IMG/VR virus record: IMGVR_UViG_3300028666_000024
Span: 64,001 to 128,000 of that record
Reading direction: 5' to 3' (one strand)
From: a virus
Length of the DNA stretch: 64,000 nucleotides
Below the pieces are notes generated by a model. The model was not told where the DNA came from, did no database searches, and worked only from the letters and a program-made list of their open reading frames with translations. This document shows, piece by piece, positions 37 through 20,013 of the stretch. Position numbers and translations under genes: made by a program. How positions within the stretch are numbered: position 1 is the stretch's first letter; each line of letters opens with the position of its first letter.

Positions 37-44
37 TATTTATA
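37..44 (-). promoter_or_regulatory. T4-type late promoter
   Basis: TATAAATA on the minus strand, overlapping the stop codon of the 311-residue gene and pointing out of the left edge of the window. It should serve a late gene to the left that is not visible here. Confidence 0.5.
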
Positions 45-975
45 ATGCCAACTCTTTGAAGTCTTTTTCAGTAAGTTCTTGAGGAGACTTATCCAACCAC
101 ATCAATTGAGACATTTGAGATAATCCTCTTTTCTTATGTCCTGTGTGTATACCTATCAAATTATACATCATTCCATTTTCTTTAGCAACATCAAAACTTT
201 CAGGATGTTCAAATACCAATTTACCACCCGGACCATATTTTTTTGCAATATCTTTGTTAAATAGAAAGAGATAAATCCTACCCTCTTCATCATCACCCTT
301 TACTTTATATTTGTATCCATGACCTATTTCACATTCAAACTCATATGGTTTAGAATGTTTTCTATCAATTCTTCCAAAATCACTTACTAAGGTTTCATAA
401 TCTGCTTCATCAATATTAAAATAACCATACTTATCCTGAACCTCATCAACATTAAAATATTTCTTTTCCTGTGGTTGAGGTTGTGTTGCATTTTTAACTG
501 CTTGTTTCTGTGCTGTTCGTTCGGCTGTTCTTTGGTCAAAGTTTGTTTTCTTCACTCCTAAATGCTGTAATAGAGTATACATATTAATATGAGTTTTAGA
601 TTCAAAATCATTATCTGCTGCCATAAAGTAATAATTTCTATTTGCTTTAGAATCTAATAATTTAATCAAATGTAGTTTCCCACCACCAACAAATTCAACA
701 TCAACTATTTCTTCGGCCTTATCCCATCCATTATGAGTAATAAAAACATGAGCATTATCTTTAAATTGAGGTTCTTTATTATAAATAATATTTACAATCT
801 GAACTTTAAAATCTTCATTATTTTTATTTTTAAATATCATCCCATTTGGTTTATTTTTAATCTTTTTAAAATATTCCCAAACATATTTAAAAGTTTCTTG
901 TTCTATAGGCCAAACAGTTTTAAAATTTTTCGAAGATAATTCTTCTTGTAAAATATAAAAGTTTTTAAAATTCAT
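40..975 (-). CDS. Putative packaged internal head protein with capsid-targeting-like N-terminus (311 aa)
   Basis: No family is recognised. The first twelve residues, MNFKNFYILQEE, match the N-termini of several other late proteins here and resemble the T4 capsid-targeting sequence (MKTYQEFIAE type). L9-Q10-E11 would be a plausible prohead-protease site. The middle (about residues 145-165) is rich in Q, T and A and may be a linker. The C-terminal half is a basic/acidic mixed domain with no catalytic motif that I can name. It follows the 440-aa gene by one base and is probably cotranscribed with it. The packaging role is inferred from the N-terminus alone. Confidence 0.75.
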   Translation of the reverse strand: MNFKNFYILQEELSSKNFKTVWPIEQETFKYVWEYFKKIKNKPNGMIFKNKNNEDFKVQIVNIIYNKEPQFKDNAHVFITHNGWDKAEEIVDVEFVGGGKLHLIKLLDSKANRNYYFMAADNDFESKTHINMYTLLQHLGVKKTNFDQRTAERTAQKQAVKNATQPQPQEKKYFNVDEVQDKYGYFNIDEADYETLVSDFGRIDRKHSKPYEFECEIGHGYKYKVKGDDEEGRIYLFLFNKDIAKKYGPGGKLVFEHPESFDVAKENGMMYNLIGIHTGHKKRGLSQMSQLMWLDKSPQELTEKDFKELAL

Positions 976-976
976 C

Positions 977-2299
977 TTATTTAACCTGTGTTTGATTTGT
1001 AGTATTTTGATTTATAGCATTTGATGTAATAACTTTAAATAATTCATCAATATTATCAATCAATTGTTTATTCATTTTAACTAATCTTCCATTAACCTCT
1101 ACACCATCACTAAATAATTTTAAATAATTATCCCAAACTGTTTTTCTAATATCTGGTTTAGTGTTTATCTTTTCATATAAAGAAATCATATTTTTATCTC
1201 GTAAATTTCCTCTAAACATATTCATAAAATTTGAATGATCTTTTGTAATTAAATTTCCAATAGATTGTGTTGAACGAGTTTTTTGCATAAGATATTTAAA
1301 AGTAATATATTCGTCTGCTACAAGTTCATAGTTTCTTCCGGGATTTTGACCTTGTGTGTTTTTATAAGCAGTTAGAAAATTAGCAGTATCCGATTCATCA
1401 AATTTAATAGAAACCTTACCTATAATTGATGTTCCATTATCAAATTTTTCTTTTACATAACCAAAAAAATCTTCATTACTAACTCCCATAGAATTTTTTA
1501 TATTTTCTGCGTTAGGTTCTATTCCCTTAGAAAGTAATTCTAAAAATTTTGTGTTAATTTCATCTAAAGAATGTCCATTCATTTCTTTTAAAACCGTATC
1601 AACAATCAAAGAATCTGCTCCCTCAACATCACCACCTTCTAAACGATTTTTCCACGAACAAAAAAGTGTTGCTGTTTTAATCCAATGACCTAATTGAGAA
1701 GCATCTTTCAAAGCATTACCTTCAAAATATTCCAAAGCTTCTTTAGGACCATTCATCTTTGGAATTCTTACTTTAGAAAATTGATAAGCATCATCAAGAG
1801 TTTTAAAAGAAACTGTTATCTTAGTTTTTGTTCCGTATACATCCTGATTTTTTTCAGCATTTCCCAAAACAGCACCAAATACCCTGACACAAATATCAAA
1901 TCCGGGAGAGTAGTATTTATCTACATGAAAACTATTGTTATCTATAGAGGTTGATTTCTCAAGTGCTTTAGTGCTAATCCACTGAGACATATAATCAGAA
2001 AACCCTTGTTTATCCTTTTTCATCGCTGCGTAAATTATTTTATCGTATGGATAAACTTTCTCTGCAAGTGCTACAAGATTATCAATTTTATTCTTAATCT
2101 GATCATAAACCCGTTTTGCATTCTTAATAAAAAAATCAAAAGGATTAATCATCTTCAAAACCCCTTTGATAGCCTTACCTGCAATACCAGAAACAAATGA
2201 GGTTGCTTTACCAGCCTGTTTAGCAATATAATCAACGCCGGAACCATTAAACTCCTGCAACATCTCTTGTTCTCTATAGTATTGTTTGAAATTAGTCAT
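977..2299 (-). CDS. Putative internal head protein with capsid-targeting-like N-terminus (440 aa)
   Basis: Begins MTNFKQYYREQEMLQEF, a longer version of the shared N-terminal peptide with L14-Q15-E16 as a possible cleavage site. Residues about 18-60 are small and hydrophobic/glycine-rich (VSGIAGKAIKGV), like an amphipathic or membrane-active segment. The remainder is helical and charged with no recognised enzyme motif. A late promoter lies 33 bases upstream of the start. It heads a late unit with the 311-aa gene. A role as an ejected or core protein is inference. Confidence 0.75.
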   Translation of the reverse strand: MTNFKQYYREQEMLQEFNGSGVDYIAKQAGKATSFVSGIAGKAIKGVLKMINPFDFFIKNAKRVYDQIKNKIDNLVALAEKVYPYDKIIYAAMKKDKQGFSDYMSQWISTKALEKSTSIDNNSFHVDKYYSPGFDICVRVFGAVLGNAEKNQDVYGTKTKITVSFKTLDDAYQFSKVRIPKMNGPKEALEYFEGNALKDASQLGHWIKTATLFCSWKNRLEGGDVEGADSLIVDTVLKEMNGHSLDEINTKFLELLSKGIEPNAENIKNSMGVSNEDFFGYVKEKFDNGTSIIGKVSIKFDESDTANFLTAYKNTQGQNPGRNYELVADEYITFKYLMQKTRSTQSIGNLITKDHSNFMNMFRGNLRDKNMISLYEKINTKPDIRKTVWDNYLKLFSDGVEVNGRLVKMNKQLIDNIDELFKVITSNAINQNTTNQTQVK

Positions 2300-2331
2300 A
2301 CTTTATTATCCTCTTATTCATCTTCAGAAAG

Positions 2332-2339
2332 TATTTATA
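2332..2339 (-). promoter_or_regulatory. T4-type late promoter
   Basis: TATAAATA followed by CTT on the minus strand, 33 bases before the start of the 440-aa gene. The extended form TATAAATACTT recurs upstream of many late genes in this window. Confidence 0.7.
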
Positions 2340-2343
2340 AATC

Positions 2344-2994
2344 TTACGAATCAAACTTATCAAAGGTTTTTTCAATAAAAGAACTATGAAAAGTGATATC
2401 ATATCTCAATGTATCTTTCGAATCATAATCTAATTGAATAGGAGTTGAATCTACATAGAATGCATCTTTATATGAAACTCCTAAAACTCTATCTCCAAAA
2501 TCATCATATATATCCACGTTGATACTGCTTATTCTGTTTTGTGTCTGACTTGCATAGTTACCATTATAAAACGGGTTATCATTATCCATTATCAGTTCTT
2601 GTAGATTCTCTATGAGATATGCTATTGTACCTTGATCATCTTCCTCAAGTGTTATATTGATATTATATCCATTAAAATCCATCACAGGAACACCATATGC
2701 ATAGGGTCCAAGTTTTATCTGTTCTACTTTCCAACCATTATTCATAGGCAAAGTACATTTGATAATATGGTAGGGAAGAATTGTATTATTTACAGAATCA
2801 GGAAGACCTTCAAAACTCAAAAGATATGTCCAAGTCTTTTGAACTGTTTTAGAATTTCCAAAGAAACCTTTTAAATTACTATCAATAATTAAAGAGTTTG
2901 GTAAGTTTCTTTGTGATTTTCCTCCACCTACTTTACCCACAATACCATTAACCTTTGATTTTACAAAATTCTTTGTTGTATTAAATAGACTCAT
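2344..2994 (-). CDS. Tail-tube-fold or baseplate/tube-associated protein (216 aa)
   Basis: The length, the position just after two gp19-type genes, and the pattern of alternating beta strands with a final YDITFHSSF strand suggest a tail-tube-fold protein, perhaps a tube initiator or baseplate-proximal protein comparable to T4 gp48/gp54. The similarity is weak and mostly positional. The N-terminal 30 residues are glycine and lysine rich and probably flexible. The start overlaps the end of the next upstream gene (2981-3643) by 14 bases, which implies translational coupling. Confidence 0.5.
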   Translation of the reverse strand: MSLFNTTKNFVKSKVNGIVGKVGGGKSQRNLPNSLIIDSNLKGFFGNSKTVQKTWTYLLSFEGLPDSVNNTILPYHIIKCTLPMNNGWKVEQIKLGPYAYGVPVMDFNGYNINITLEEDDQGTIAYLIENLQELIMDNDNPFYNGNYASQTQNRISSINVDIYDDFGDRVLGVSYKDAFYVDSTPIQLDYDSKDTLRYDITFHSSFIEKTFDKFDS

Positions 2995-3643
2995 TTATTT
3001 TACCATGTTTCTTTAGTAATTTTCTTTGCTCTTCCATCGTGTGATATTTTCTAATCATTGTTGCATATTCTGGTTCTGAAATATCAATATCTACCTTCTT
3101 TGTTTTATATTTTGAAGGATTTTTTCCTAAATAATTCTTTGTATCATACATTCTCTTCTCATAGTCTATATACTTAATTGATGAAATGTTTATCGGAAGT
3201 TTGTTTATTACATAAATAAGTTTCTCTTTTATTTCATCATCAAGGCCTTCATAATAAAATGCTCCCTCGTCTTGTAAACTCTTAGGATACCTTGAATTCC
3301 ATTGTAAACTAACTTTGAAATATGGTTCTCCTAAACCCAACCTGTTTCCTTCTGCTGTTTTTAAAAAATTTCGAACTGAGTTATGAAATACTCCTCCGGG
3401 CCAAATCAACATATTAGGATCATCTGTTTGCATATCCATAGGAAACATTCTTACACCACCAAACCAATTATCTCCAAAATGAAATGTTGAATATTCACTC
3501 TTTGCAATTCTTATAAACTCATCTTCTGAAGGATTCAAAGCCATTGGAACATTTTCAAAATCTCCATAATCCCCATGTTGAAATATATTTGGAAAGTTTA
3601 CTCGAATCTCTTCCTGTAATTTATAAAAGTTTTTAAAATTCAT
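2981..3643 (-). CDS. Putative internal head protein with capsid-targeting-like N-terminus (220 aa)
   Basis: Starts MNFKNFYKLQEEI, almost identical over twelve residues to the 311-aa protein although the rest is unrelated. L9-Q10-E11 is the candidate cleavage site. The body has aromatic/glycine-rich strands (NWFGGVRMFP, LIWPGGVFHNS) and a basic C-terminus ending KKHGKINESI. It lies between two tube-like genes, so the peptide has been attached to a gene inside the tail operon. No enzymatic motif is visible. Confidence 0.75.
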   Translation of the reverse strand: MNFKNFYKLQEEIRVNFPNIFQHGDYGDFENVPMALNPSEDEFIRIAKSEYSTFHFGDNWFGGVRMFPMDMQTDDPNMLIWPGGVFHNSVRNFLKTAEGNRLGLGEPYFKVSLQWNSRYPKSLQDEGAFYYEGLDDEIKEKLIYVINKLPINISSIKYIDYEKRMYDTKNYLGKNPSKYKTKKVDIDISEPEYATMIRKYHTMEEQRKLLKKHGKINESI

Positions 3644-3682
3644 TATGAAACTTTCTGATATCTGTTGAATATTCTGGTTCTA

Positions 3683-4450
3683 TTACCACTTTATCTTTGT
3701 TGCTTTTTGTTCAATGAAACTTGCTCCTGCATTCACAACATTTGAAACCACTGTGTTAGCAAGATCTGTAAAAGTATTTGGAACCAATTCCCAAAAATCA
3801 TAACTAAATCCTATGTTATACTTTATCAAATCTCCACCATCAATATAACTCACACCAACTTCCTGAACCTCTTTCGGCCAACAATTATAAAATACTATTG
3901 ATTTATCTAACTGAATTCCATTATAGGCATACATCATAAGTGTAATACTTGTCATATACTGACTTTTATCGACAACAGAAGTCCCGGAGAATGCTGCTTG
4001 ATTTCTAAATTGTGAGTTTGAAATAATATTCATCCAATCATCCATAAACTTCTTGATTGTTTGTCTCTCAGTTTCTTCATATAAAATATTTAATACATTT
4101 GAGAATTCTGCTCTACCGGGAAGTTTTCTAGTTTGACCATAGAATGATGTTGATATATCACTCATAACTTTAGAAGGTATAGAAGCAGAACGACATTTAA
4201 TTATCAAATCCTCATCTATTAAAACCTTATCAGTATTACCTCCTAAAGTTTGTAAATTTAATCCTCCTAAATAATTTGAAGAATACTTTTGAACGTTCTT
4301 TATAAAATCGTTAGCAATAATAACTTCAAATGTCCAATTCCGTTGAGGATCAGCATAACGGACGGAAAGTCCTTGGCGACTCTCCAATGTTAAATTTTGA
4401 CCTACCAACCCCTTAACACTTGAAAAAGCACTATTGAAACTAAGCGGCAT
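3683..4450 (-). CDS. gp19-like tail tube paralogue (255 aa)
   Basis: Shares with the gp19 gene at 4780-5379 the order of a central R-S/A-x-x-I-P strand (CRSASIPSK against VRARSIQIP), a Y/F-G-x(3)-K/Q-x-P-G-(R/K)-x-x-F-S-N segment (GQTRKLPGRAEFSN against GMHQIFPGKPTFSN), and a C-terminal GG-D-x-(I/V)-K-Y-N strand. This is the T4 gp19/gp48/gp54 tube-fold lineage. With 255 residues and longer termini it is more likely a tube initiator or terminator than the tube subunit itself. Start supported by an AAGGA site. A late promoter lies 58 bases upstream. Confidence 0.7.
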   Translation of the reverse strand: MPLSFNSAFSSVKGLVGQNLTLESRQGLSVRYADPQRNWTFEVIIANDFIKNVQKYSSNYLGGLNLQTLGGNTDKVLIDEDLIIKCRSASIPSKVMSDISTSFYGQTRKLPGRAEFSNVLNILYEETERQTIKKFMDDWMNIISNSQFRNQAAFSGTSVVDKSQYMTSITLMMYAYNGIQLDKSIVFYNCWPKEVQEVGVSYIDGGDLIKYNIGFSYDFWELVPNTFTDLANTVVSNVVNAGASFIEQKATKIKW

Positions 4451-4607
4451 CTTGAAAATCCTTTTTAAAATCTTGTACTAAATCTTTAGAAGTAACACCT
4501 TTAGAAGTATTTATAAAATTATTATATTGCCAATTCTTTGATAATTTTCCACCTCTAAATATAACAAAATCTCTAACAAGTTCTGTAGAAACCTGTCTGT
4601 TTTTCAA
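4440..4607 (-). CDS. Possible small protein, TTG start (55 aa)
   Basis: An open frame with a TTG start whose product begins MKNRQVSTELVRDF and ends DFKKDFQDAA. Its last ten bases overlap the start of the 255-aa tube-like gene, the compact overlap typical of real phage genes. The ribosome site is weak (GAG about ten bases upstream). The late promoter at 4508-4515 lies inside it. It could be a real small gene, a decayed fragment, or a chance frame. Confidence 0.35.
   Translation of the reverse strand: MKNRQVSTELVRDFVIFRGGKLSKNWQYNNFINTSKGVTSKDLVQDFKKDFQDAA
4508..4515 (-). promoter_or_regulatory. T4-type late promoter
   Basis: TATAAATACTT on the minus strand, 58 bases before the 255-aa tube-like gene. 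Confidence 0.65.
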
Positions 4608-4686
4608 AATATATTTTCTCTAATTTTTTGAACTTATTCTTTGATTTTATCTTTTAAATTAATGCAATAATTACACATATTTACAT

Positions 4687-4750
4687 CCTCCGTATGTTGC
4701 CGAGAGTTTAGATTCAAAGAGAAAGGACGCTCTCGGAGGTAACGTCCTTT
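4687..4750. other. Interleaved inverted repeats (possible pseudoknot or terminator)
   Basis: CCGAGAG (4700-4706) can pair with CTCTCGG (4730-4736), and AAAGGACG (4722-4729) with CGTCCTTT (4743-4750). The pairs interlock (a-c-b-d), the arrangement of an H-type pseudoknot. CCTCCG (4687-4692) can also pair with CGGAGG (4734-4739). The block lies just after the stop of gp19 in the direction of transcription, so it may end or attenuate the gp19 transcript. The U-tract after the hairpin is poor. Confidence 0.5.
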
Positions 4751-4779
4751 TCGGGGATCAGCCTATCTCTTATACTAAT

Positions 4780-5420: not shown

Positions 5421-5906
5421 TTACTTTTGAACTTGCTTATTAAAGAAATTAATAAATTCTTCAACTTTTTCTTTTGGAATCATAATCCTGCAATGATTGT
5501 TTCCCTTTTCACCTTCTGGTTTATAGAGTCTAAGTTCGAGATCACCACCGGGATATGGATTTACAGATACTTCCTGTTTTCCAGAAGTTCCTTTAGCTTC
5601 AAACTTAAAGACATGTCCAGAAGTTTCATCTGTTGATTCGTCTTCATCATCAAAAAAAGGATCGTCTGGATCATTATCAACACCATAACCTTCATGTTCT
5701 TCACCATAATTCTCAAATAAAAATCTACCAGCGATAAGATAACCTTCATTCTTAGTCTTCTGTTTTGCTTCAAACTCTTTCAACTCTTTTTCAGCTTTTT
5801 TCAATTTTACTCTATAAAACTTTTTAGCTGATTCTAAAACTTTCTTACTTGCAATCTTTTCTTTACAATCATTAATCTCATTTTCAATATATTTCTTATC
5901 TCTCAT
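5421..5906 (-). CDS. Hypothetical late protein with RFLxE motif (161 aa)
   Basis: Lies between sheath and tube genes. Residues 1-50 are a lysine/glutamate-rich coiled coil. Residues 57-65 read LIAGRFLFE, one of five occurrences in this window of an A-x-R-F-L motif in late, head-associated genes. A strongly acidic stretch follows (DNDPDDPFFDDEDE), then a compact C-terminal domain. The L-x-E part would suit the gp21-type protease. The function is unknown, and a role as core or packaged protein is inferred from the motif. Confidence 0.75.
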   Translation of the reverse strand: MRDKKYIENEINDCKEKIASKKVLESAKKFYRVKLKKAEKELKEFEAKQKTKNEGYLIAGRFLFENYGEEHEGYGVDNDPDDPFFDDEDESTDETSGHVFKFEAKGTSGKQEVSVNPYPGGDLELRLYKPEGEKGNNHCRIMIPKEKVEEFINFFNKQVQK

Positions 5907-9768: not shown

Positions 9769-11010
9769 TTAATTAAGAATTATATCCACTTCAACTTTAC
9801 ACTTACTTCTAATAATTTTTTTTATTTTATCTATGAGAATATTCTTTTTGAATATATTCATTCCATGTGGAAACAACCAATTATCTTGAGCAAAGAAATA
9901 TCTTCCAACATATTCTGGTAACTCTGATTCATCTGTAATTTCTTCGATTGAGTTGTGTGTGCAATCAAAATCTATTCCAACTTTTTTTGGACATCCTTTC
10001 AAATCTTTTAAAAGATTTCCACTACATCTGAAACTTCCTGCAACAGAGTGAGGACATCCTTCTAATGTTGTTAGTCCTAAATCTGCACAAGTAAAATTAC
10101 CATCAACCTTTTTAAATTTAATTATTAATTTTCCATCTCTTGCAAAATTTTCGTCTAGATAAACACTCTCTTTAGAATCATATGTTCCATCAGGATTCTT
10201 AGTAAATTTTTTAAACAATTTCTCAGTTATTTCTTCTTCACTCATAGGTTTAAATATTTCTGCTTCCTTTTTAAGTATTCCTAAGTAATTTAAAAGATTA
10301 TTTTTGATATATATAGGACTATCATCTGCAATTGAAAATTTATTTTTGAGATATATATTATTATCATTTGCATTAAACCATTCTATTATTTCATAATTTG
10401 GATAAATTGCTACTGCTATCTTTTGAAAATACTTCTTAACAGATTCACTACTTTTATCTTCATGTCTATCTGTAAAATTATTTTTTAAATCCTCAATATC
10501 CTTTATCATTATAAAATAAAATGCTACCCCTCGGTTTGTATATTCGTCAAAATAATTTGAACTCTTTGCGCTGATACACCACTTGGTATTTGCTCCATAT
10601 ATCTGTGCAGCTTCCTTTGTAAGAATTTTAAAAATTTGACACTTTTCATTTTCAAATACTTTTAAAGCACCTTTAGTCTTTAAAACACTTTGTACTTCAT
10701 TTTTAGAAGGAGGAAGACTATCTAAGGCCTTTTTCAATCCTCTTAGAAAATATTTATTAATATCTTTCTCTTTAAGTCTATTTAAATTCTTTTCAAATTT
10801 TTCTAATAATTCAACAACTTCGTCTGTATACTCAAAGGCTCTGTGCATAATATCTGTACTGTTCTTTATAAGAAACTTTACAAACTTTGATTTATTTTGA
10901 AGTCTGCTGTTAATATCTCTTATAGTTATTTTAGCAATATCAGTAAGATTACTCTTTTCAAGTTCATCTTCTATCTTAGATTCTATCAAATAAAAACTTT
11001 TAAAGTTCAA
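9769..11010 (-). CDS. Putative packaged protein: targeting-like N-terminus, TKWC domain and LRR-like repeats (413 aa)
   Basis: Begins MNFKSFYLIESKI (L8-I9-E10 possible cleavage site). Around residues 130-165 is GANTKWCISA followed by a Tyr-rich stretch and AFYFIMI, a domain seen in many phage proteins of unknown function. The C-terminal part has GCP-x-x-V-x-G-x-F-x-C repeats (LTTLEGCPHSVAGSFRCS, LKDLKGCPKKVGIDFDCT), a short leucine-rich-like solenoid usually associated with binding. It overlaps the next upstream gene by eleven bases. The function is unknown. An ejected effector is one possibility. Confidence 0.75.
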   Translation of the reverse strand: MNFKSFYLIESKIEDELEKSNLTDIAKITIRDINSRLQNKSKFVKFLIKNSTDIMHRAFEYTDEVVELLEKFEKNLNRLKEKDINKYFLRGLKKALDSLPPSKNEVQSVLKTKGALKVFENEKCQIFKILTKEAAQIYGANTKWCISAKSSNYFDEYTNRGVAFYFIMIKDIEDLKNNFTDRHEDKSSESVKKYFQKIAVAIYPNYEIIEWFNANDNNIYLKNKFSIADDSPIYIKNNLLNYLGILKKEAEIFKPMSEEEITEKLFKKFTKNPDGTYDSKESVYLDENFARDGKLIIKFKKVDGNFTCADLGLTTLEGCPHSVAGSFRCSGNLLKDLKGCPKKVGIDFDCTHNSIEEITDESELPEYVGRYFFAQDNWLFPHGMNIFKKNILIDKIKKIIRSKCKVEVDIILN

Positions 11011-11836
11011 TTTTAAACTCCTTTTGAAATTCTTGCCAAACTAAATATAAACGACTTATCAACTTTTTTAAACCTTTTGAATTATTTTTTCTCAAATGTT
11101 CTTTATATTCAAACTTTAAAAAATGTTCTATAAAAATCTTTTGAAACGCTATAAAATTTGTTAAATACTTTTTTAATGCAATCTTGTTTTCTTTTTCACA
11201 ATTCAATAAAAATTCCTGTATTTGATATAAAGCTTGATTCCAATGAGAGTTTTTTTCTGTTCCTGAATCATAATATTTTTTTAGTCTTAGACTTTTATTC
11301 TGCAACTCTGTAGTAGTTATTTTTTTATTTTTAATAATAGAAAATTTAAATTTTATATCATCCAGATAATGATTAACTTCATGAGCTACTGTTCCCCATC
11401 CAATCCTAGTAATCTCATCCCATATCTTATAACCGTCCCATTCAACAAATGAGTTATTAAGAATATAAAACGTTATTTCATATTCTACACCGATAAAATT
11501 TTGAAGTAATGAAATAGGAATTTTATTTATTTGTTCTTTAATATTTGTATATGATGCTAATGCTCCTACTTCTCTACCATCTATTTCACTTTTAAATTTT
11601 AGAAATAATCCTTTATATTCAGGATCAAGTATTCCAACATCAATCTTATATGTATTAAAACAATCTCTATATACTCCACCATATGTGAAGAATAAATCCT
11701 CTTCAATAAGTTTTAAACTACCATTTTTATAAGAAGCAAAAGAAATCCACTTTCTAACCTTTTCAACAAAGATTTTAACTTCTTTTGCTCTTTCTAAATC
11801 TTCTCTTTCTAAGAAATAAAATTGTTTGAAATTCAT
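11000..11836 (-). CDS. Putative packaged metallopeptidase-like protein with targeting-like N-terminus (278 aa)
   Basis: Starts MNFKQFYFLEREDLERAKE, the shared peptide, though the cleavage site fits less well (F8-L9-E10). Residues 150-159 read VAHEVNHYLD, an HExxH zincin motif (H152, E153, H156). The third zinc ligand is not certain; candidates lie in the helical C-terminus (for example SHWNQALYQIQE). The C-terminal 80 residues are Lys/Phe/Leu-rich helices. It lies between terminase subunits with the 413-aa gene. Peptidase activity and packaging are both inferred from motifs. Confidence 0.75.
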   Translation of the reverse strand: MNFKQFYFLEREDLERAKEVKIFVEKVRKWISFASYKNGSLKLIEEDLFFTYGGVYRDCFNTYKIDVGILDPEYKGLFLKFKSEIDGREVGALASYTNIKEQINKIPISLLQNFIGVEYEITFYILNNSFVEWDGYKIWDEITRIGWGTVAHEVNHYLDDIKFKFSIIKNKKITTTELQNKSLRLKKYYDSGTEKNSHWNQALYQIQEFLLNCEKENKIALKKYLTNFIAFQKIFIEHFLKFEYKEHLRKNNSKGLKKLISRLYLVWQEFQKEFKIEL

Positions 11837-11838
11837 AA

Positions 11839-12177
11839 TTAAATCTCTCCCAATACAACAAGCAAATCCAACGCAGCATTAACATTTGTAACTCCCTCTT
11901 TCTCAAGATTGGGAGAGTCAACTGATCGTGCAACATACAATCCTTCATGAATTCTATATACAACACCAAACTCATTCTTTCCTTCTATATTTGTGAAGAA
12001 TACTCTCCAAATCTCACCTTCACTAACAGACTCAAACTCAATACGAATATCACTTCCCTCAATCTTGTAAACTTTATCCTTCTGAATCTCTTCAAAAGCA
12101 ACAGTCTCTTCCAAAGGAATTTTATAAGTTTGATAACGATTTTTCAATGATTTTAATGTTATATAATCTTTGAGCAT
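11839..12177 (-). CDS. Hypothetical late protein (112 aa)
   Basis: Mostly beta-strand and acidic (DKVYKIEGSDIRIEFESV, GEIWRVFFTNIEGKNEFGVVYRIHEG), with a hydrophobic C-terminus (NAALDLLVVLGEI). Its ATG overlaps the stop of the small terminase gene by one base, and its end is three bases from the next gene, so it is translationally coupled in the terminase operon. No family is recognised. Confidence 0.75.
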   Translation of the reverse strand: MLKDYITLKSLKNRYQTYKIPLEETVAFEEIQKDKVYKIEGSDIRIEFESVSEGEIWRVFFTNIEGKNEFGVVYRIHEGLYVARSVDSPNLEKEGVTNVNAALDLLVVLGEI

Positions 12178-12710
12178 TACTTTCTATCCTCCACAGTGAA
12201 TGTAGCATCAATTGCTGTCATTGTAGAATTATCTCTTGCTTTGTTCACCAAATCTAAAAGTTGAGATGCATTCATGGTTATCTTTCCACCATCAGGAATA
12301 TCTTTAACTGAATTTATTTTGTTCAAATCCATCTTTGCTTTGAAAATTGCTTGGTCAAGTTCTCGAAGTTCTTTATAAGCTTCAGTAAGAGTTTTTACAA
12401 GTTCACCATAAACTTTGTGAGAATATGCCTTGGTTCCTATTCTAATATCAGCTTCAAGTTTCTCCATGACAAGTTCAGTCTTTATAATCATATTTTTCAA
12501 ACCTTCACGAAGTTCTACTTGGTCTTCAAAAATTTCAACACCTGTTGTCTTTAATGCAATAACTTCATTCTTCTGTCTTGTCAAACTTTCAAAAGTATTC
12601 AAAAGAGTTAAGGAAGTCTCTTGAACATTTTCTTCAGGAACAAATGATGTATCTAATTTTTGAGAAATTTTTTCTAATGAATCAAAAACTTTCTCGTTCG
12701 ATTCTGGCAT
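12177..12710 (-). CDS. gp16: Terminase small subunit gp16-like
   Basis: 177 residues, close to T4 gp16 size. It has a long central helical segment (about residues 65-140: GLKNMIIKTELVMEKL, YGELVKTLTEAYKELRELD) matching the coiled-coil oligomerisation core of gp16-type small terminases, and a C-terminal tail (ITMNASQLLDLVNKA). It would form a ring that regulates gp17 and recognises DNA. Late promoter 23 bases upstream. Identification rests on pattern and neighbourhood, not on a unique motif. Confidence 0.7.
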   Translation of the reverse strand: MPESNEKVFDSLEKISQKLDTSFVPEENVQETSLTLLNTFESLTRQKNEVIALKTTGVEIFEDQVELREGLKNMIIKTELVMEKLEADIRIGTKAYSHKVYGELVKTLTEAYKELRELDQAIFKAKMDLNKINSVKDIPDGGKITMNASQLLDLVNKARDNSTMTAIDATFTVEDRK

Positions 12711-12732
12711 TATAATCCTCCTATTATCTAAT

Positions 12733-12740
12733 TATTTATA
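12733..12740 (-). promoter_or_regulatory. T4-type late promoter (terminase operon)
   Basis: TATAAATAATT on the minus strand, 23 bases before the gp16 start, back-to-back with the early promoter at 12755. Confidence 0.65.
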
Positions 12741-12754
12741 ATTTTGGATTTTAT

Positions 12755-12783
12755 TTGCAATTTATCCCGGCATAGATTATATT
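12755..12783 (+). promoter_or_regulatory. Early promoter, CCGGCATG-spacer class (distal)
   Basis: TTGCAA, 17-base spacer (tttatcccggcatagat), TATATT. It is the first of two tandem promoters before the 118-aa gene. Confidence 0.75.
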
Positions 12784-12841
12784 TATTACAGAACTTCAAT
12801 ATGCAGAGATTCTTCCTGAAGGGAACCATTTAAAATAGTTC

Positions 12842-12870
12842 TTGCTTTTTATTCTGGCATGTTGTATATT
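12842..12870 (+). promoter_or_regulatory. Early promoter, CCGGCATG-spacer class (proximal)
   Basis: TTGCTT, 17-base spacer (tttattctggcatgttg), TATATT, 53 bases before the ATG at 12924. Between this and the ATG is CATAAATA (12898-12905), a near match to the late promoter, so late expression is also possible. Confidence 0.7.
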
Positions 12871-12923
12871 ATTCATGAAAGAGATTTAAAATAAATTCAT
12901 AAATATTTTAAAAGGAGATTCAA

Positions 12924-13280
12924 ATGCCGTGCGATTCAGTCATAACAGTCAAAATGTCCGAGAAGGTTAATTACGAAATCTTTCAGGCCGAAGCTGCTGC
13001 AAAGGCTATGGGAATGGATGTTGTTAAACGGGGAAATTCCCTCTACATCACTCATAACGGTGTAAGTATGGTTCTCCGGGATGGAACTCTATCGGCAGAA
13101 GTTCAGTCTTACAATTATTCTGACAGAAAGAAGGAAGAGGAAAAGATTCAGGAAGTTCGAAAAAAACTCAACCTCGGATATCAGCAAAAGAACGTCGAAA
13201 AAGATATGCTCAGAAACGGATTCCGGCCTCTCTCTGCACCCCAAGGACCGACTATGAAGGTTGAATGGGTGAGAATCTAA
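12924..13280 (+). CDS. Hypothetical early protein (118 aa)
   Basis: Begins MPCDSVITVKMSEKVN and has a compact alpha/beta N-terminal part (AAAKAMGMDVVKRGNSLYITHNGVSMVL) that resembles small phage proteins of the DUF1257 sort, although I cannot confirm this. The C-terminus is charged and helical. Strong AAGGAG site. It ends two bases before the phosphatase gene and shares its two promoters, so the pair forms one early operon. Confidence 0.8.
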   Translation: MPCDSVITVKMSEKVNYEIFQAEAAAKAMGMDVVKRGNSLYITHNGVSMVLRDGTLSAEVQSYNYSDRKKEEEKIQEVRKKLNLGYQQKNVEKDMLRNGFRPLSAPQGPTMKVEWVRI

Positions 13281-13282
13281 TC

Positions 13283-13873
13283 ATGCCTTATACCGTGACA
13301 TTTATCTGCACAGGAAACACTTGCAGAAGCGCTATGGGTGAAGCAATAACCAAATCACTACTGCTTCCATATAAGAATATCAAGGTTGATTCTTGTGGTA
13401 TTCAAACTACCACAGGAACCCCTGCCTCTGTTAATTCTAAAATTGTTAGCAAACAAAACGGTATTGATCTTAACAAACATCGTTCCCGGAAGATGACTTA
13501 CAAAATCCTTCAGAACTCAAACTTGATTCTTTGTATGGAAGATTTACATATGGATAGAATTATATCTCTCTATCCTGAATTCAAAGACAAAATCTTCAGA
13601 CTGAAAAGTTGGATGAAAGTTTCAAAACCTACTAACGGCAATAAAAAAATTCAACACCCTACAGTGAAAACAAATAAGTCTTTCGATTCATATTACGATA
13701 AAGATATATGGAACTCTTTTTTTGGTGATTATGATGAAGAAAATTATGCTGACAACATTCCAGATCCTTATGGCGGCAACCTCAAAGAATATGAGATGAC
13801 CTTCAAAGAGATATATCAGGAAGTAAAAAGAGTAGTTCCTTTTATCATTGCTGCTGCTAATAAAGGTTCTTAA
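13283..13873 (+). CDS. Low-molecular-weight protein tyrosine phosphatase-like enzyme (196 aa)
   Basis: N-terminal signature C9-TGNTC-R15-S is the C-x5-R phosphate-binding loop of the LMW-PTP/arsenate reductase fold. It is followed by VDSCGIQT, GTPASVNSKI and NLILCMEDLHMDRI in family order, and a C-terminal DPYGG carrying the general-acid Asp. An insert of about 40 residues precedes the DPYGG. I chose the ATG at 13283, next to the upstream stop and with a GGGTGAG site, over an earlier in-frame codon at 13265. It would dephosphorylate host tyrosine phosphoproteins. The gene's end overlaps the convergent giant gene by 17 bases. Confidence 0.85.
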   Translation: MPYTVTFICTGNTCRSAMGEAITKSLLLPYKNIKVDSCGIQTTTGTPASVNSKIVSKQNGIDLNKHRSRKMTYKILQNSNLILCMEDLHMDRIISLYPEFKDKIFRLKSWMKVSKPTNGNKKIQHPTVKTNKSFDSYYDKDIWNSFFGDYDEENYADNIPDPYGGNLKEYEMTFKEIYQEVKRVVPFIIAAANKGS

Positions 13874-16800
13874 GAAATTCAACTTCAAAACCAATTGGAT
13901 AGTTTTGAATTGTAGCTATATCTCCATGTAGAGCCGTTATATCTCCTGTCTCTCCTATGAATGATGTTACTCCTTCAATATTTGGGCCAATAATTCTAAC
14001 ATTATCACCAATTTTAAAATTTTCTTTCTTCTTTTCCCCGGTTTTATTTTCAATTTTTTTAGAATCTTCCTCTTTAGAACTTCCTTCTTTGTTAATTAAT
14101 TTTAAACACTTATATGTATCAGAAAATATATTAAAACCATGATAAGGTTTTGTTATTGATGAATATTGATGAAATAATTTATTTTCATCGTCCCATTCAA
14201 TAGTCATATACATTTCCTGAATTTTCTTAACTGTTCCTTTCATTCCTATATTAAAAACTATACCACTTTCGATAAAATCTTTTATGACTTCTATTCTATC
14301 ACCAATTTTAAAATTTTCTTTCTTCTTTTCCCCGGTTTTATTTTCAATTTTTTTTTCAATTTTTTTAATCTTATCATATCCAATATATCCACTCATAGAA
14401 GATACCCAATCTACCCAACACACAGTAGAGTAGACGCTTATAATAACTCCGGTATCTCCTCTTTTTACACTTCCAATTGTTTTAATACATTCAACAAAAT
14501 CACCACTTTTAAACTTTCTTTCTTCCTTCTTTTCAACAGGAATATCTTCATCTTTGATTAATTCTAAACTTTTACCATAATAACTACCGTACTCATCAAA
14601 ATAATCATTTGTATCTAAACTACGTTTTAATTTATATAGACCAATAGTATATATTTTTCTGCCGACAGAGGTGGAAGGTATTGTTTGTATTTTCCCCCAT
14701 TTGCCGAGATAATCATCCTTCGTATTATAAATATTATTACCTATAATATTTACTTTATCACCAATTTTAAACTTCTCTTTTAATTTTAAAGAATCATCAA
14801 GTCTTAGAAATCCTAATCCGAAATATGGTGCTGATATTAGTGACATTTTTCTTAAATTTTTATCAGCAACATTAGCAACTTTCTTATTCCAACTAACAGT
14901 TATTAAATTTTTTGAACCAGTAGAGTCAGCGGTACGAACTATTCCAGTTTCACCTTTTTTATACACAAAACCATTCTTTATAAAATCTTTCATAACCTCT
15001 ATGGTGTCTCCAACCTCAATACCTATTGGAAATTTGTAAGATGAATCTATAGGTATACGTGTATCTTTTTTCTTTCCTTCCTGATTCTTTTCAACTTTTT
15101 TAACCTGAGTAGGATAAAATGTGGAAGTTTTTGTTTTTTCCTTATTCCACACTTCATAATTTGTAAATTTACCATTAGTGCTATAAACCTCTTTTACTTC
15201 ATATTCTTCGCCTACTTTATATGAGTTCCTAGTAGTGTGAAGAATTTTAACAGTATCCCCTGCCTTTATACCCTTTTCTAATTCATTTCCAATTACTTTT
15301 AAACTTTCCTTTGGAAATAATTTTAAAACTGCGCTCGTTAAAGTAACCTGATAAAGATTCTTATCCAGAAATATTAAACCTACTCTACCCTCACCACCAA
15401 TATATAAGGTATTATCTTTATCGTCAGGCCCTACAATTTGAACAAAATCACCAATTTTTATTTTTTTAGAATCTTCCTCTTCATCTTTGATTTTTTCTAT
15501 ACTGTTCTTTGGAAAAAGATAAGAATGAGGATTATCACCTACTACTACCCAATAAGTATCGGAATGAGGATAATCACTATAATTTTCAATTGTTCCTATC
15601 TCTCCTATTTTATCTATACCTGAAACAGTTTTTCCAATTATCTTAACTTTATCACCTATTTTAAAAGTTTTCGAATTCTCTTCAGAAGACTTTTTAACAA
15701 TTTTAAAATATTCAGGAGTTAAGAAATTTACACCAATAACAAAGTTTTTTGAACCATCAGTCCATACTTCTTTATCCCACTCAATCTCTATTCCTGAACC
15801 TTGATTACTACCCATATAAATAATTTTTGCTTGCTCACCTACACGAAAGGTTTTACTATCTTCTGTGAATTTTTTTACAACTTCAATTATATCACCTATT
15901 TTTAGGGTTATATCTCCAAACTTAAAACCATGCATATTTCCATCATAATCTTTCTTTTCTTCAAACGGTTTATCTGTCTTCTTAACATCATTAAAACCAT
16001 ACCAATTTTCAAGTTTATATGTATACATAATCTTATATGGTAATTTTCTATCTTGCATATCAACCTTAATAATTTTACAGATGTCTCCTTTATGTCCATC
16101 TTTTGTTGTTACAATTTCTACAACATCTCCAACCTTTAAAGCATTTGCAAAAACATTTGAAAATTTTCCCTTCTTAACAACTTGTAAATTTTCTTTTTTA
16201 AGAAGGACAGAAGATTTTTTATCTAAAGTGTAAATTTTAATAAATTCTTCATCAACATATTTAACCTCAGAAATAGAATCAACCATTTTTTGTGCTTCAT
16301 TATTAAGTTCTGGTGCTGACTTGATATAGACATAATCACCCTTCATAATCTCACCATCAAGATCTGCAAGAAGTTTATTTCGAAGATTTATCATACTCTT
16401 TAAAATAACAGGTTGTTCTTGAGTTTTATAAATTTTTAAAGCAGAGTCAAGAATTTTTTCTATTTTTATCTTTTTATTTTTATATAAACTTTCTATAGAT
16501 TTACAACACAACATTTGATGACCGTTAAAACTTTTTGTAGTTTTTATTAGTTTATCTAAATAATCTCCTTTTTTTGTTTTACCATTTTTAATAAAATATT
16601 TTACACAACTTATTATTATTTTTGTTTTATTTTTAACTTCTTTTGAATTTTCTGGATTATTTAACATATCTTCAGCAATATAAAGAAAAACTTTGTATGC
16701 ATTTATCTCTGTTAATGCGCTGAAAATAAACCATATTGAATCTGATTTACTAGCACAATTTTTTGCTAATGTTTCTAAATCAAGTGGTAATTTTGCACCA

Positions 16801-18125
16801 ATCCATGTAATTTGCCATTCTTTAGGAAAGTTGTTTATATAATTGATATTAGAATGATCTTCAGGATTTGGTTTAAATTTTCCTTTTAAAACCTTTGTTA
16901 CAAAATATTTAAAAAGTTTTAACTGATCTTCTGAAATTTGAAAATCAGCAACTGGTCTGCGTTCTCTTTCTGGTCTTGGTTCTTGATTGGTAATATAATC
17001 ATCATCGTCATTGTATTCTTCACTCGAACCTAATATATTTCTTGATGTTTCTCTTGGTATTAAATCTTTTCTCGTATCATAACTATCTCTTTGTGGAGGA
17101 AGATTATCGTTGTCAGGTATATCTTCAACCTTATCGGCAGAGTGACCAAACAAATCCTTATAAGCAGCATAGAAGGCCGGTTGAATTTGTGGAGAACACC
17201 ACGGAATTAACTTCTGATATGAAATTGGTTTTGTTTCATCTTTCTCATAAACAAATTCTGAGTTTCTGTGTTTATCATATGTCTTTATATATTCTCCTTC
17301 TGCATTTTTTAGAGGTATTTTATTACCATAAATATCTCTTTTATATGGATGTGAAATATCCGCTTTCAAATCTATAAGAGTGCTACTAACATGAACACCT
17401 CTCCATTTAGTTAATATAGATCCATTATTATGCTCAATATCAACAACATGGTCTATTGCTCCATATATTTCTCTACTCTTTTCATCTAATTCAAACTTCT
17501 TATAAGCAGACTCCATAGCCATCCAAGCATCAGCGATATCCTTCCACGCCTTACCACCATATGAATACTCCATAGCCGCGATATCCTTCCACGCCTTACC
17601 ACCATATGAAGAATGCCACATATTATATCTTTGTGAAAAAGCTACTTTACAAAAATATACAAAGTCTGAAGGATTAAACCCACTAATATGAGAAATTACC
17701 TTCCATCTTATTTCATATCTATTACCTTCTGCATTTAATCTTTGTAAACTATAACCATCTTCATCTGGATTTATAGCATTTGCAAGTTTTTCAAACATAT
17801 TTTTAAGATATTCATTTTTTTCTAAAAATTCTTCTTGTAAAGATGTATCATAAAATGCTTGAAAATGAACAATTTCACAAGCACATGCCCGGAGAACTGC
17901 TTCATTCAAAAATTTATAAAGACCTTTGATTATCTGTTTGTTTGCATATTCCAAAGAAAATCCCAATTCTTCATCCCTTAAATCTTTGAATGCATCTGCG
18001 TCTGTCTTGTGAACGGAGAACATTGCATAGAAGTCGGCAACAAGTTGGTTAGGATCTTTAGGAATTCTATAATCAAAATTAAATCCTTCTTTTAAAACAC
18101 TTTTATAAAAATCTGAAAATTTCAT
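13857..18125 (-). CDS. Giant late protein with targeting-like N-terminus and tandem SH3/KOW-like repeats (1422 aa)
   Basis: The ATG at 18125 overlaps the gp15 stop by one base (TAATG) and gives MKFSDFYKSVLKEGF, the shared peptide with a near-ideal prohead-protease site L11-K12-E13 before G14. The frame is open 27 bases further upstream, but that start is less likely. Residues about 20-560 are helical with a 15-residue tandem duplication (YGGKAWKDIA twice). From about 600 to the end come at least eight modules built on F/K-x-I/S-G-D-x-V-x-I/V followed by G-x-x-G-x-I, a KOW/SH3-like beta barrel, joined by Lys/Glu/Ser linkers. Function unknown. It may be an ejected or core protein. Confidence 0.85.
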   Translation of the reverse strand: MKFSDFYKSVLKEGFNFDYRIPKDPNQLVADFYAMFSVHKTDADAFKDLRDEELGFSLEYANKQIIKGLYKFLNEAVLRACACEIVHFQAFYDTSLQEEFLEKNEYLKNMFEKLANAINPDEDGYSLQRLNAEGNRYEIRWKVISHISGFNPSDFVYFCKVAFSQRYNMWHSSYGGKAWKDIAAMEYSYGGKAWKDIADAWMAMESAYKKFELDEKSREIYGAIDHVVDIEHNNGSILTKWRGVHVSSTLIDLKADISHPYKRDIYGNKIPLKNAEGEYIKTYDKHRNSEFVYEKDETKPISYQKLIPWCSPQIQPAFYAAYKDLFGHSADKVEDIPDNDNLPPQRDSYDTRKDLIPRETSRNILGSSEEYNDDDDYITNQEPRPERERRPVADFQISEDQLKLFKYFVTKVLKGKFKPNPEDHSNINYINNFPKEWQITWIGAKLPLDLETLAKNCASKSDSIWFIFSALTEINAYKVFLYIAEDMLNNPENSKEVKNKTKIIISCVKYFIKNGKTKKGDYLDKLIKTTKSFNGHQMLCCKSIESLYKNKKIKIEKILDSALKIYKTQEQPVILKSMINLRNKLLADLDGEIMKGDYVYIKSAPELNNEAQKMVDSISEVKYVDEEFIKIYTLDKKSSVLLKKENLQVVKKGKFSNVFANALKVGDVVEIVTTKDGHKGDICKIIKVDMQDRKLPYKIMYTYKLENWYGFNDVKKTDKPFEEKKDYDGNMHGFKFGDITLKIGDIIEVVKKFTEDSKTFRVGEQAKIIYMGSNQGSGIEIEWDKEVWTDGSKNFVIGVNFLTPEYFKIVKKSSEENSKTFKIGDKVKIIGKTVSGIDKIGEIGTIENYSDYPHSDTYWVVVGDNPHSYLFPKNSIEKIKDEEEDSKKIKIGDFVQIVGPDDKDNTLYIGGEGRVGLIFLDKNLYQVTLTSAVLKLFPKESLKVIGNELEKGIKAGDTVKILHTTRNSYKVGEEYEVKEVYSTNGKFTNYEVWNKEKTKTSTFYPTQVKKVEKNQEGKKKDTRIPIDSSYKFPIGIEVGDTIEVMKDFIKNGFVYKKGETGIVRTADSTGSKNLITVSWNKKVANVADKNLRKMSLISAPYFGLGFLRLDDSLKLKEKFKIGDKVNIIGNNIYNTKDDYLGKWGKIQTIPSTSVGRKIYTIGLYKLKRSLDTNDYFDEYGSYYGKSLELIKDEDIPVEKKEERKFKSGDFVECIKTIGSVKRGDTGVIISVYSTVCWVDWVSSMSGYIGYDKIKKIEKKIENKTGEKKKENFKIGDRIEVIKDFIESGIVFNIGMKGTVKKIQEMYMTIEWDDENKLFHQYSSITKPYHGFNIFSDTYKCLKLINKEGSSKEEDSKKIENKTGEKKKENFKIGDNVRIIGPNIEGVTSFIGETGDITALHGDIATIQNYPIGFEVEFLKNLY
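14003..14354. repeat. 58-bp direct repeat inside the giant gene
   Basis: Positions 14003-14060 and 14297-14354 are identical, 294 bases (98 codons) apart. They encode the Lys/Glu linker and the start of an SH3/KOW-like module (ENKTGEKKKENFKIGD). It indicates recent duplication of a module at the C-terminal end. Confidence 0.85.
17533..17610. repeat. 33-bp tandem repeat, period 45, inside the giant gene
   Basis: 17533-17565 and 17578-17610 are identical and encode the repeated YGGKAWKDIA segment, a 15-codon tandem duplication. Confidence 0.85.
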
Positions 18126-18961
18126 TATGCTAAGTTCTCCCCTTGAAACCACTCGTAAGATAAATTACTATTTAGATTTGTTCCACTCAAATTAAAATCT
18201 CCCGGTGTCAAACTTCCAGATAAAGGAACATCATCAGATAAAAGAACACCAGATAATCCTATACTATCTATTTCTGAATTATTTATAAAATATCTCGTAT
18301 TGATTACTTGTATAATACTTGCTGGACTCCAAGGACGATACACAACAGCTTCAACAGTCAATGGTAAATCTAAATTAATTTGTCTGTAATCATTCTCACC
18401 GATATCTTCTGTAATCCTTGGACTGATACTATCAATATTTACCGGAAAAGTTCTTTCAATATTTAAAAAACTAAACTCCTTAACCCTCAACTGAAGTTTT
18501 GGATTGAAATAAGGAAGAATATTTTCCAACAATTGAAACATAGACTCATATGAATCTGTTCTGATATATAACATAAAATTCAAATTGTATGGAGCAGGTT
18601 GAATATCTTTCATAATTTCACCAACACTATTTCCATCTACTCCTACTGTATCAGTCAACCACTCTCTTGTAGCTTCGACAGATGTTGCTCGGTCAGGGGC
18701 ATATGTCACTCCCTGAAAACATAATGCCATTCTCGGAAGTTTGATATAGAATCTTTGACCGTGCTCCTGATTATTTTTGTCAAAGTAATGATTCTGAAGC
18801 AACCACTGATATTCTTTCTCAGGTTGGTTTGCCATGATAGGAACTTCAACTGGATTTCCAACAGGATTTCCAGTTTTATCATATGTCTTTACAATCAAAT
18901 TTTTAAAAGTGTTTAATAAAGATTCTGTAATATTATACATCGTTCTAGGGTAATAATACAT
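18125..18961 (-). CDS. gp15: Tail sheath stabiliser / tail terminator gp15
   Basis: 278 residues, near the T4 gp15 size. It has the family start (MYYYPRTMYNITESLLNTFKN...) with an aromatic N-terminus, and the conserved segment SMFQLLENILPYFNPKLQLRV, which matches the T4 gp15 pattern D-M-F-Q-I-V-E-Q-I-L-P-Y-F-x-P. The C-terminal half carries a WSPASIIQVINTRYF strand and a Ser/Gly-rich tail. gp15 hexamers cap the tail tube and sheath and join tail to neck. Coupled to the giant gene by TAATG. Confidence 0.85.
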   Translation of the reverse strand: MYYYPRTMYNITESLLNTFKNLIVKTYDKTGNPVGNPVEVPIMANQPEKEYQWLLQNHYFDKNNQEHGQRFYIKLPRMALCFQGVTYAPDRATSVEATREWLTDTVGVDGNSVGEIMKDIQPAPYNLNFMLYIRTDSYESMFQLLENILPYFNPKLQLRVKEFSFLNIERTFPVNIDSISPRITEDIGENDYRQINLDLPLTVEAVVYRPWSPASIIQVINTRYFINNSEIDSIGLSGVLLSDDVPLSGSLTPGDFNLSGTNLNSNLSYEWFQGENLA

Positions 18962-18974
18962 TAGTTCAACTCCG

Positions 18975-19466
18975 TTATGGTCTGTTCCTTAAAAAATCAA
19001 TAAGTTCTTCCATTTGATATTCAGTTTCAAACTCTTCTGAATCAAGAGTTTCATAATTCTTTGAAAGCCAATCAACTCTTACCTTAAATGCTCCTGTCTT
19101 TTCAACCTCATACTTCTGGTCATATGTAATAGGATTAACCAAAGATATAATTAAAAATTTACCTTGATCTACTGTTCGAGCTCTTATTGCTCCTGTCTCT
19201 CCCATAAATGCAACCATATATCCCGAACCACTTCCCGGATCGTTATAATAACCTTTTGGAACTTCATATTTAAAAACCCTACTAATAATTCTATGATCAT
19301 TATTAACCATTATACAAGTTCCATCAGAAAGAACATATTCAGCTAAATCAATTCCATCAACAACATCAAAAATTTCTTTTGCACGTTTTTCAAGTTGAAC
19401 CGGATAATCTTGATCAGTAACTTTTAAAACTTTTGAAGCTTCATTATAAAATTTTTGAAATCTCAT
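18975..19466 (-). CDS. Putative internal head protein with targeting-like N-terminus and SH3-like domain (163 aa)
   Basis: I prefer the ATG at 19466, giving MRFQKFYNEASK, which fits the shared peptide, over the ATG at 19481 (MDILKMRF...). No L-x-E site is evident. The second half (YMVAFMGETGAIRAR, KVRVDWLSKNYETL) resembles single SH3/KOW-like modules of the giant protein, so the two may be related. It overlaps the end of the 189-aa gene. Function unknown. Confidence 0.7.
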   Translation of the reverse strand: MRFQKFYNEASKVLKVTDQDYPVQLEKRAKEIFDVVDGIDLAEYVLSDGTCIMVNNDHRIISRVFKYEVPKGYYNDPGSGSGYMVAFMGETGAIRARTVDQGKFLIISLVNPITYDQKYEVEKTGAFKVRVDWLSKNYETLDSEEFETEYQMEELIDFLRNRP

Positions 19467-20013
19467 CTTCAGAATGTCCATTATATGTTAAAATTTTTTC
19501 TAACTGTTCTTTTGAATATCCTATCTTCATTAAATACTCAAGTGCTTCCTTCTTTGACATTCCACCCATAACACTTGCACCTACATCATTCATCTTAAGT
19601 GTCTTCAATGCAATCTGTTTCTTATGTTTGTCAAATATATCTACAGACTCTTTTATTCTATCAATGTTCTGTATTTCTTTTCCTGATATTTTCTTATTGT
19701 CTGCTCCTGCATATTTCTCTTCTTCTCTCTTCTCTTCCTTTTCAATTTCATAATATTTGTCTTGTTGTTCCAAATCGGCAAACTCAGTATAATATTTTGG
19801 ATGTTCTTTAAGATGTGCCTTTACAATCATATCAAAAAATGTATCTTCAGAGAATGGAAGTTGATAATCATTGTCTTCAGCCCAATTTTGAAGTTTAGTC
19901 CAAATATCCATATGCTCAGATTTTTCATCTTCAAGACCTAGAGATACTTCCCTTGGATCAAAATCTTCCTTATTACCGGCAGTATTTTCATCAATATACT
20001 GTGAAAATTTCAT
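19444..20013 (-). CDS. Putative internal head protein with targeting-like N-terminus (189 aa)
   Basis: Starts MKFSQYIDENTAG. I7-D8-E9 would be an acceptable I-x-E cleavage site, and the peptide is the closest in length to the T4 targeting sequence. The middle is a Glu/Lys coiled coil. The C-terminus (GGMSKKEALEYLMKIGYSKEQLEKIL) has UBA-like helices repeated into the last residues. First gene after the late promoter at 20032, so it heads the gp15 operon. Confidence 0.75.
   Translation of the reverse strand: MKFSQYIDENTAGNKEDFDPREVSLGLEDEKSEHMDIWTKLQNWAEDNDYQLPFSEDTFFDMIVKAHLKEHPKYYTEFADLEQQDKYYEIEKEEKREEEKYAGADNKKISGKEIQNIDRIKESVDIFDKHKKQIALKTLKMNDVGASVMGGMSKKEALEYLMKIGYSKEQLEKILTYNGHSEDEISKIL

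Follow-up and report, generated by a model that had tools for sequence, protein, structure and literature searches.

A shared N-terminal peptide on at least 13 late proteins of a phage with a T4-type head: a probable capsid targeting sequence

The stretch analysed here (the window; 64,000 bases) comprises positions 64001-128000 of a 169,231-base phage record from IMG/VR (IMGVR_UViG_3300028666_000024), and encodes a T4-type head and tail set, with a major capsid protein, a scaffold, a protease, a portal, a sheath, two tube proteins, a gp15-like stabiliser and a terminase. Eight genes of its late block, singled out in an earlier note, begin with variants of a short peptide, here called the tag, which resembles the capsid targeting sequence (CTS) of the internal proteins of phage T4. 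The whole record, with a GC content of 32%, was gene-called with a simple codon-usage caller, which gave 187 genes with predicted starts; coordinates prefixed G000 are those of the whole record, and all others refer to the window. All eight genes and the peptides attributed to them were found in place, and are given here with two late promoter-like sequences upstream of them.

40..975, minus strand: gene, 311 amino acids (aa); peptide MNFKNFYILQEE; tag at 943..975 (minus), MNFKNFYILQE, LQE then E
977..2299, minus strand: gene, 440 aa; tag at 2252..2299 (minus), MTNFKQYYREQEMLQE
2332..2339, minus strand: late promoter-like TATAAATA, 40 bp upstream of 977-2299
2981..3643, minus strand: gene, 220 aa; peptide MNFKNFYKLQEE; tag at 3611..3643 (minus), MNFKNFYKLQE
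9769..11010, minus strand: gene; peptide MNFKSFYLIES; tag at 10981..11010 (minus), MNFKSFYLIE; TTG start after AGGAG
11000..11836, minus strand: gene; peptide MNFKQFYFLERE; tag at 11807..11836 (minus), MNFKQFYFLE
13857..18125, minus strand: gene, 1422 aa; peptide MKFSDFYKSVLKEG; tag at 18087..18125 (minus), MKFSDFYKSVLKE; GGGGAG upstream
18975..19466, minus strand: gene, 163 aa; peptide MRFQKFYNEA; tag at 19440..19466 (minus), MRFQKFYNE
19444..20013, minus strand: gene, 189 aa; peptide MKFSQYIDEN; tag at 19987..20013 (minus), MKFSQYIDE
20032..20039, minus strand: late promoter-like TATAAATA, 26 bp upstream of 19444-20013

The tag is real, and at least 13 late proteins, the bodies of which are for the most part unrelated, carry it. 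The motif formulated in the earlier note occurs in 10 of the 187 predicted genes, compared with a mean of 0.01 (maximum 1 in 2000 trials) upon shuffling of residues 2-30 and of 0.07 (maximum 2 in 5000) upon permutation of N-terminal columns between genes, and it was found at none of 795 internal methionines. A looser expression, M-x(0-2)-[FY]xx[FY]-hydrophobic, retrieves 15 genes, or 13 once two likely membrane proteins are removed; taken alone, it performs less well against permutation (mean 3.6, maximum 10 in 5000). An aromatic pair at positions i and i+3 is present in all 13 tagged proteins, and within residues 7-18 hydrophobic-x-E is found in 13 of the 15 motif genes versus 38 of the 172 others (p = 9e-7), and (L/I)xE in 9/15 versus 22/172 (p = 8e-5). 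The earlier count of six (L/I)xE motifs among the eight window peptides was reproduced; 11000-11836 has FxE and 18975-19466 has YxE. The bodies, said to have nothing in common, proved to be unrelated for the most part: all-against-all blastp of the 13 bodies gave one pair with E < 0.001 (26-30%), consisting of 2981-3643 and its off-window paralogue G000:26048-26713, which has the tag MNFDDYL and a late promoter, and one further marginal local match of 44 residues (E = 0.049).

The proposed similarity to the T4 internal proteins extends to the residues at which targeting and processing have been mapped. In T4 IPIII, targeting was found to depend mainly on residues 4 and 7 of the peptide MKTYQEFIAE, and processing on residues 8 and 10 (PMC9026906). 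The aromatic pair three residues apart (Y4/F7 in T4) recurs in the window peptides, followed by hydrophobic-x-E (I8/E10), and T4 IPII and IPIII fit the looser expression. The spacing to E is strictly that of T4 in three motif genes: it is exact in the tag of 19444-20013 (FxxYIxE), and in that of 18975-19466, the ribosome-binding site of which is weak, Y replaces I8. Shared with the CTS of IPI, IPII and IPIII are the N-terminal position, the length of about 10 residues, the aromatic pair three apart, hydrophobic-x-E in most of the tags, an S77 protease (gp21) and the variable bodies. The differences are that at least 13 proteins are tagged here, compared with three internal proteins plus Alt in T4, that the spacing from the aromatic pair to E varies, that large multidomain bodies are included, and that packaging and cleavage are predictions here. 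The propeptides of the ejection proteins of SPN3US and phiKZ are likewise N-terminal, present on several unrelated head proteins and removed by a prohead protease (PMC5694885); most of those of SPN3US, however, exceed 100 residues and have another cleavage motif, and only gp45 has a propeptide of T4 length (20 residues).

The gp21 homologue reported in the earlier note was recovered, together with homologues of three further T4 head proteins.

26731..27417, minus strand: gp21 homologue, prohead protease; Peptidase_S77 match, E = 5.9e-19
24536..25327, minus strand: gp22 homologue, scaffold; C-terminus FYSMASRFLD, resembling T4 gp22 YAKVASRF
23048..24448, minus strand: gp23 homologue, major capsid protein; LLRE/AAFG aligned to T4 FLTE/AEIG
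28543..30330, minus strand: gp20 homologue, portal protein

The gp23 homologue has an LxE (LLRE/AAFG) at the position aligned with the cleavage position of T4 gp23 (FLTE/AEIG).

Expression signals were considered as well. TATAAATA is the core of the T4 late promoter, and lies 25-50 bp ahead of many gene starts in the late block. The claim that no early gene has the peptide holds inside the window, but the 169-kb genome has five further tagged genes, all of them outside the window and away from the late block.

G000:26048, plus strand: tagged gene, MNFDDYLSKTLIKEE; TATAAATA 29 bp upstream
G000:36022, minus strand: tagged gene, MNFVEFLVEW; TATAAATA 38 bp upstream
G000:132790, plus strand: tagged gene, MNFKDYYCKEIMNES; TATAAATA 24 bp upstream
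G000:145964, plus strand: tagged gene, MGKFSNFYYFEN; second gene of the GroES operon
G000:146299, plus strand: tagged gene, MSFENYVLFES; third gene of the GroES operon

The last two have no TATAAATA within 80 bp of their own starts; the first gene of their operon, the GroES-like G000:145551 (PHROG 3188), has it 29 bp upstream. The T4 counterpart of GroES is gp31, which folds the capsid protein. Outside the late block, TATAAATA is situated within 80 bp of three of six motif genes (the five tagged genes plus one membrane protein), versus 8 of 128 others (Fisher p = 0.007, with small numbers). By position, the tagged genes belong to the late block, lie near late promoters or are part of an operon that has one, and late expression is plausible for them.

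The bodies themselves reveal little by homology, as no family of known function passed when the eight window bodies were compared with Pfam and PHROGs, and PADLOC gave no match for the window cargo. Neither Pfam nor PHROGs had a match to 40-975; the same is true of 977-2299, which was also without a match in phage records, and Pfam matches to 19444-20013 were weak and below the cut-off. The protein encoded by 13857-18125, which starts behind a good ribosome-binding site, has repeated G-D-x-V SH3-like segments and matches PHROG 10201 (E = 2.7e-10; function unassigned), and no homologues were found in phage records. 11000-11836 possibly encodes a zinc metallopeptidase, judging from a HEVNHYLDD segment that by eye resembles the HExxH motif of zinc peptidases; it has no homologues in phage records or IMG/VR, and its AlphaFold2 (AF2) model was not usable (predicted local distance difference test, pLDDT, 36).

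The body of 9769-11010 is the one that could be followed into other phages. It consists of a helical N-terminal part, a G-x-T-[KR]-W-C (W-C) domain and leucine-rich repeats (LRR), and a scan for the W-C family gave at least 517 relatives, of which 80 loci (L119-L198) were kept. The closest orthologues among these loci, at L119, L122 and L123, retain the tag (NFKSFYLIES, TFKNFYLLES, INFETFYLLES and QFKQYFNRNVLVES, the latter in short form QFKQYF..LVES), and the roughly 70 residues after it diverge among them. In the AF2 model of 9769-11010 (43 sequences, mean pLDDT 80), residues 1-6 have a pLDDT below 50, and the first helix starts at residue 12, directly past the predicted cut LIE/S. An (L/I)xE(G/S/A)(R/K/N) segment within residues 3-26 is present in 39 of 77 W-C family proteins versus 13 of 682 neighbouring genes; this count is weaker evidence than the sharing of a tag by unrelated bodies, because most of these proteins are homologues and the segment could belong to the protein. 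No PDB entry matched the fold of the W-C domain at E <= 0.001, and its BFVD matches were proteins of PA5oct and other phages and, weakly, PcfJ-like proteins. Among 22 contigs with the W-C family, S77 was found in 13 and S78 in none, counts that have no random-contig baseline; S77 is also present in PA5oct and SCTP-2. In G012, G015, G016, G017 and G023, the S77 domains lie within open frames of 617-1026 aa, possibly as fusions. EST35_0205 of PA5oct (MKLFEVFTLYED), a W-C relative of the 9769-11010 body, was flagged by electrospray ionization tandem mass spectrometry in the proteome. Matches to SCTP-2's own motif are mostly W-C paralogues, and SCTP-2 is therefore weak evidence of tag sharing.

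Similar starts occur on other proteins of other phages. At L123, five genes within 4.6 kb have tag-like starts (MNNFNTYINNIINES, MKFDNFINTVLTEK, MITFKQYFTEK, MIQFKQYFNRNVLVES and MIKFKQYFLIES), with bodies that are possibly related. The contig of L122 (G013, 51450-68338) has eight genes with an N-terminal LI(F/L)EA(Y/F), seven of them x-L-I-F-E-A and one LILEA, which may represent a second class of tag in that phage. The 320-kb phage G034, with an S77 protein at E = 4.5e-27, has 31 genes fitting M-x(0-2)-[FY]xx[FYW] versus 15.3 by permutation (maximum 26 in 1000), and hydrophobic-x-E plus the following residue was found in 20 of these 31 versus 70 of 329 (p = 1e-6). Six of the 31 were dropped by eye, leaving 25 that are likely to be tagged, among the bodies of which blastp linked 183528 and 186319 as a clear homologous pair and gave one other match, of 29 residues. 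Pfam, run on 20 of the 25, identified 2_5_RNA_ligase2 (1e-11) and Acb1 (34.7 bits, cut-off 27) in 128712-129236 (MLDFKNWVVLNES), a 2H phosphoesterase/Acb1-like protein, the head domain of poly(A) polymerase/tRNA nucleotidyltransferase (3e-27) in 246550-248043 (MLTFKKYVQLLENS), and a Toprim-like domain in 208222-209247, the tag of which may be false. A relative of the 2H protein in LR756502 has the tag-like start MIKKYLEFMKES, and the nucleotidyltransferase of LR756511 starts with MRTTFLEFMGLKEA; the tag looks modular, because bodies occur both with and without it. Close relatives of the present phage were sought with the window terminase, which gave two contigs (32%), and with an alignment query, which gave 80 loci (35-46%) with about eight genes having a T4-like start (MKPFSQFISEA, MKSYRQFISES, MKTFKSYLKEA); for these loci, the counts were 18/915 at starts versus 18/4354 at internal ATGs. 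A DNA-pattern scan for a ribosome-binding site plus MNFKxFY gave seven loci, several of which are chance matches. In the closest relative, the terminase gene is split by an intein- or intron-like insertion (L100, G001, 10864-13906).

A second motif, A-x-R-F-L, was found in five proteins of the phage, compared with 0.23 expected by shuffling. The gp22 homologue ends with MASRFLD, much as T4 gp22 ends with KVASRF; unlike in T4, the motif also occurs in four proteins other than gp22, in which it continues into LxE.

5421..5906, minus strand: IAGRFLFE, A at residue 59
25385..26731, minus strand: IAGRFLME, A at residue 95
28171..28506, minus strand: VANRFLIE, near the N-terminus; gene between portal and protease
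40690..41148, minus strand: IASRFLTE, at the C-terminal end

The gp22 of contig G001 ends with IANRFLAG, and A-x-R-F-L might, as a guess, be an assembly motif derived from the scaffold.

Other features of the record should be mentioned. Adjoining the capsid gene, 21331-22944 encodes 537 aa with repeated zinc-finger-like cysteine motifs and by eye looks homing endonuclease-like. Beyond the window, the members of a run of six small genes (G000:151703-153772) start with MKIR(M/T)GFVSNSSSSS or a near variant, and nine genes (G000:12547, 15739, 21039, 40345, 42680, 43494, 162240, 164380 and 168065) have the near-identical N-terminus MCNSASFIVTQNDVLFSKYSDSHEDIISENKLND.

It is probable that the tags act as capsid targeting sequences of the T4 type for an enlarged and diverse cargo, directing proteins to the head and being removed there by the gp21 homologue. 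As the tag agrees with T4 internal proteins at the residues by which these are loaded into the head, its carriers are likely to be packaged together with the DNA; by analogy with the internal proteins and Alt (PMC9026906), they could also be delivered to the host, although ejection is considered less likely than head targeting and removal. Late in infection, the N-terminal F/Y-x-x-F/Y segment would draw the tagged proteins into the core of the assembling prohead, the gp21 homologue would cut after the following hydrophobic-x-E, and the mature proteins would stay inside the head, some of them perhaps entering the host with the DNA. A single tag would in this way serve the phage for at least 13 proteins, the bodies of which are largely unrelated.

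Several observations weigh against this reading. Two of the eight window peptides are without (L/I)xE, the gap from the aromatic pair to E is variable, and inside the late block TATAAATA is not enriched at motif genes (2/9 versus 13/44 others). The loose motif in G034 exceeds permutation only twofold (31 versus 15), and 2H homologues are without an evident tag in at least three of the phages examined, LR756508, LR756511 and the Maribacter phage Colly_1. The LxE segment of the W-C family may be part of a conserved protein instead of a removable tag. In the S77-positive PA5oct (286 kb), of which three stretches were examined, proteins flagged by mass spectrometry are enriched neither for (L/I)xE (10/66 versus 20/103) nor for the tag expression (2/66 versus 2/103); a post hoc motif, MKI-x-[DE]-I, marks genes that are mostly flagged, which is no independent evidence.

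The alternative that survives best accepts head targeting and assigns the proteins a role in the capsid or its assembly, such as core filling or DNA condensation, instead of that of ejected effectors. T4 core proteins are also cut into fragments by gp21 (PMC5694885), the tagged genes lie near head genes, and the second motif is shared with gp22; nevertheless, the cargo includes several large, domain-like bodies (W-C plus LRR, HEVNH, DUF3293) and enzymes are found in the tagged set of G034, so that a purely structural role seems unlikely, if worth keeping in mind. A virion-assembly signal for another compartment, by which the proteins would dock onto the tail, neck or baseplate, is suggested by gene order, as the tagged 40-3643 lie between tail-tube-like genes and 18975-20013 beside the gene for a gp15-like tail sheath stabiliser. 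However, the recognised tail genes of the window (sheath, tube, gp15-like stabiliser) are without the tag, as are its terminase and portal genes; moreover, the tag resembles head-cargo tags of T4, the putative cleavage motif belongs to the head protease, and G000:145964 and G000:146299 share an operon with the counterpart of gp31, all of which makes tail docking improbable.

The two remaining alternatives deny the peptide a function. A preference of translation initiation in an AT-rich genome would fit the low GC content and the AT-rich codons of the residues used (N, F, K, Y, I), yet permutation of columns, which keeps the position-specific composition, yields 0.07 genes instead of 10, hydrophobic-x-E follows preferentially, tagged genes occupy late positions or belong to late-promoter operons, and the tag is conserved in orthologues; this explanation is thus very improbable. 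Recent copying of 5' gene ends by recombination, without a common function, is hardly credible: 40-975 and 2981-3643 do share all of their first 21 bases, but on average the DNA is 53% identical in codons 2-7 and 34% identical in the 20 bases upstream, no 5' flanks are shared beyond the coding start, and similar tags are found on other bodies in other phages. An origin of the tag by gene duplication was rejected on the same DNA identities.

It is conceivable, though somewhat doubtful, that large T4-related phages have a general loading system based on short N-terminal tags that are specific to each phage, recognised by the scaffold and cut off by S77 proteases. Each virion would then contain tens of unrelated proteins, among them enzymes (2H phosphoesterase/Acb1-like, CCA tRNA nucleotidyltransferase) that might weaken the defence of the host upon entry, and the W-C family would be a marker cargo.

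Should the tag indeed direct packaging, the delivered proteins of uncultured phages could be listed from sequence alone, and many uncharacterised late genes would become testable injected proteins and candidates for pre-loaded counter-defence. The T4 system, with its few internal proteins, would be widened to 13 proteins in the present phage and possibly to 25 in a jumbo phage, and comparison of tags between phages would make the determinants of head-cargo specificity accessible to experiment. In addition, the tags would be natural signals for loading cargo into phage heads.

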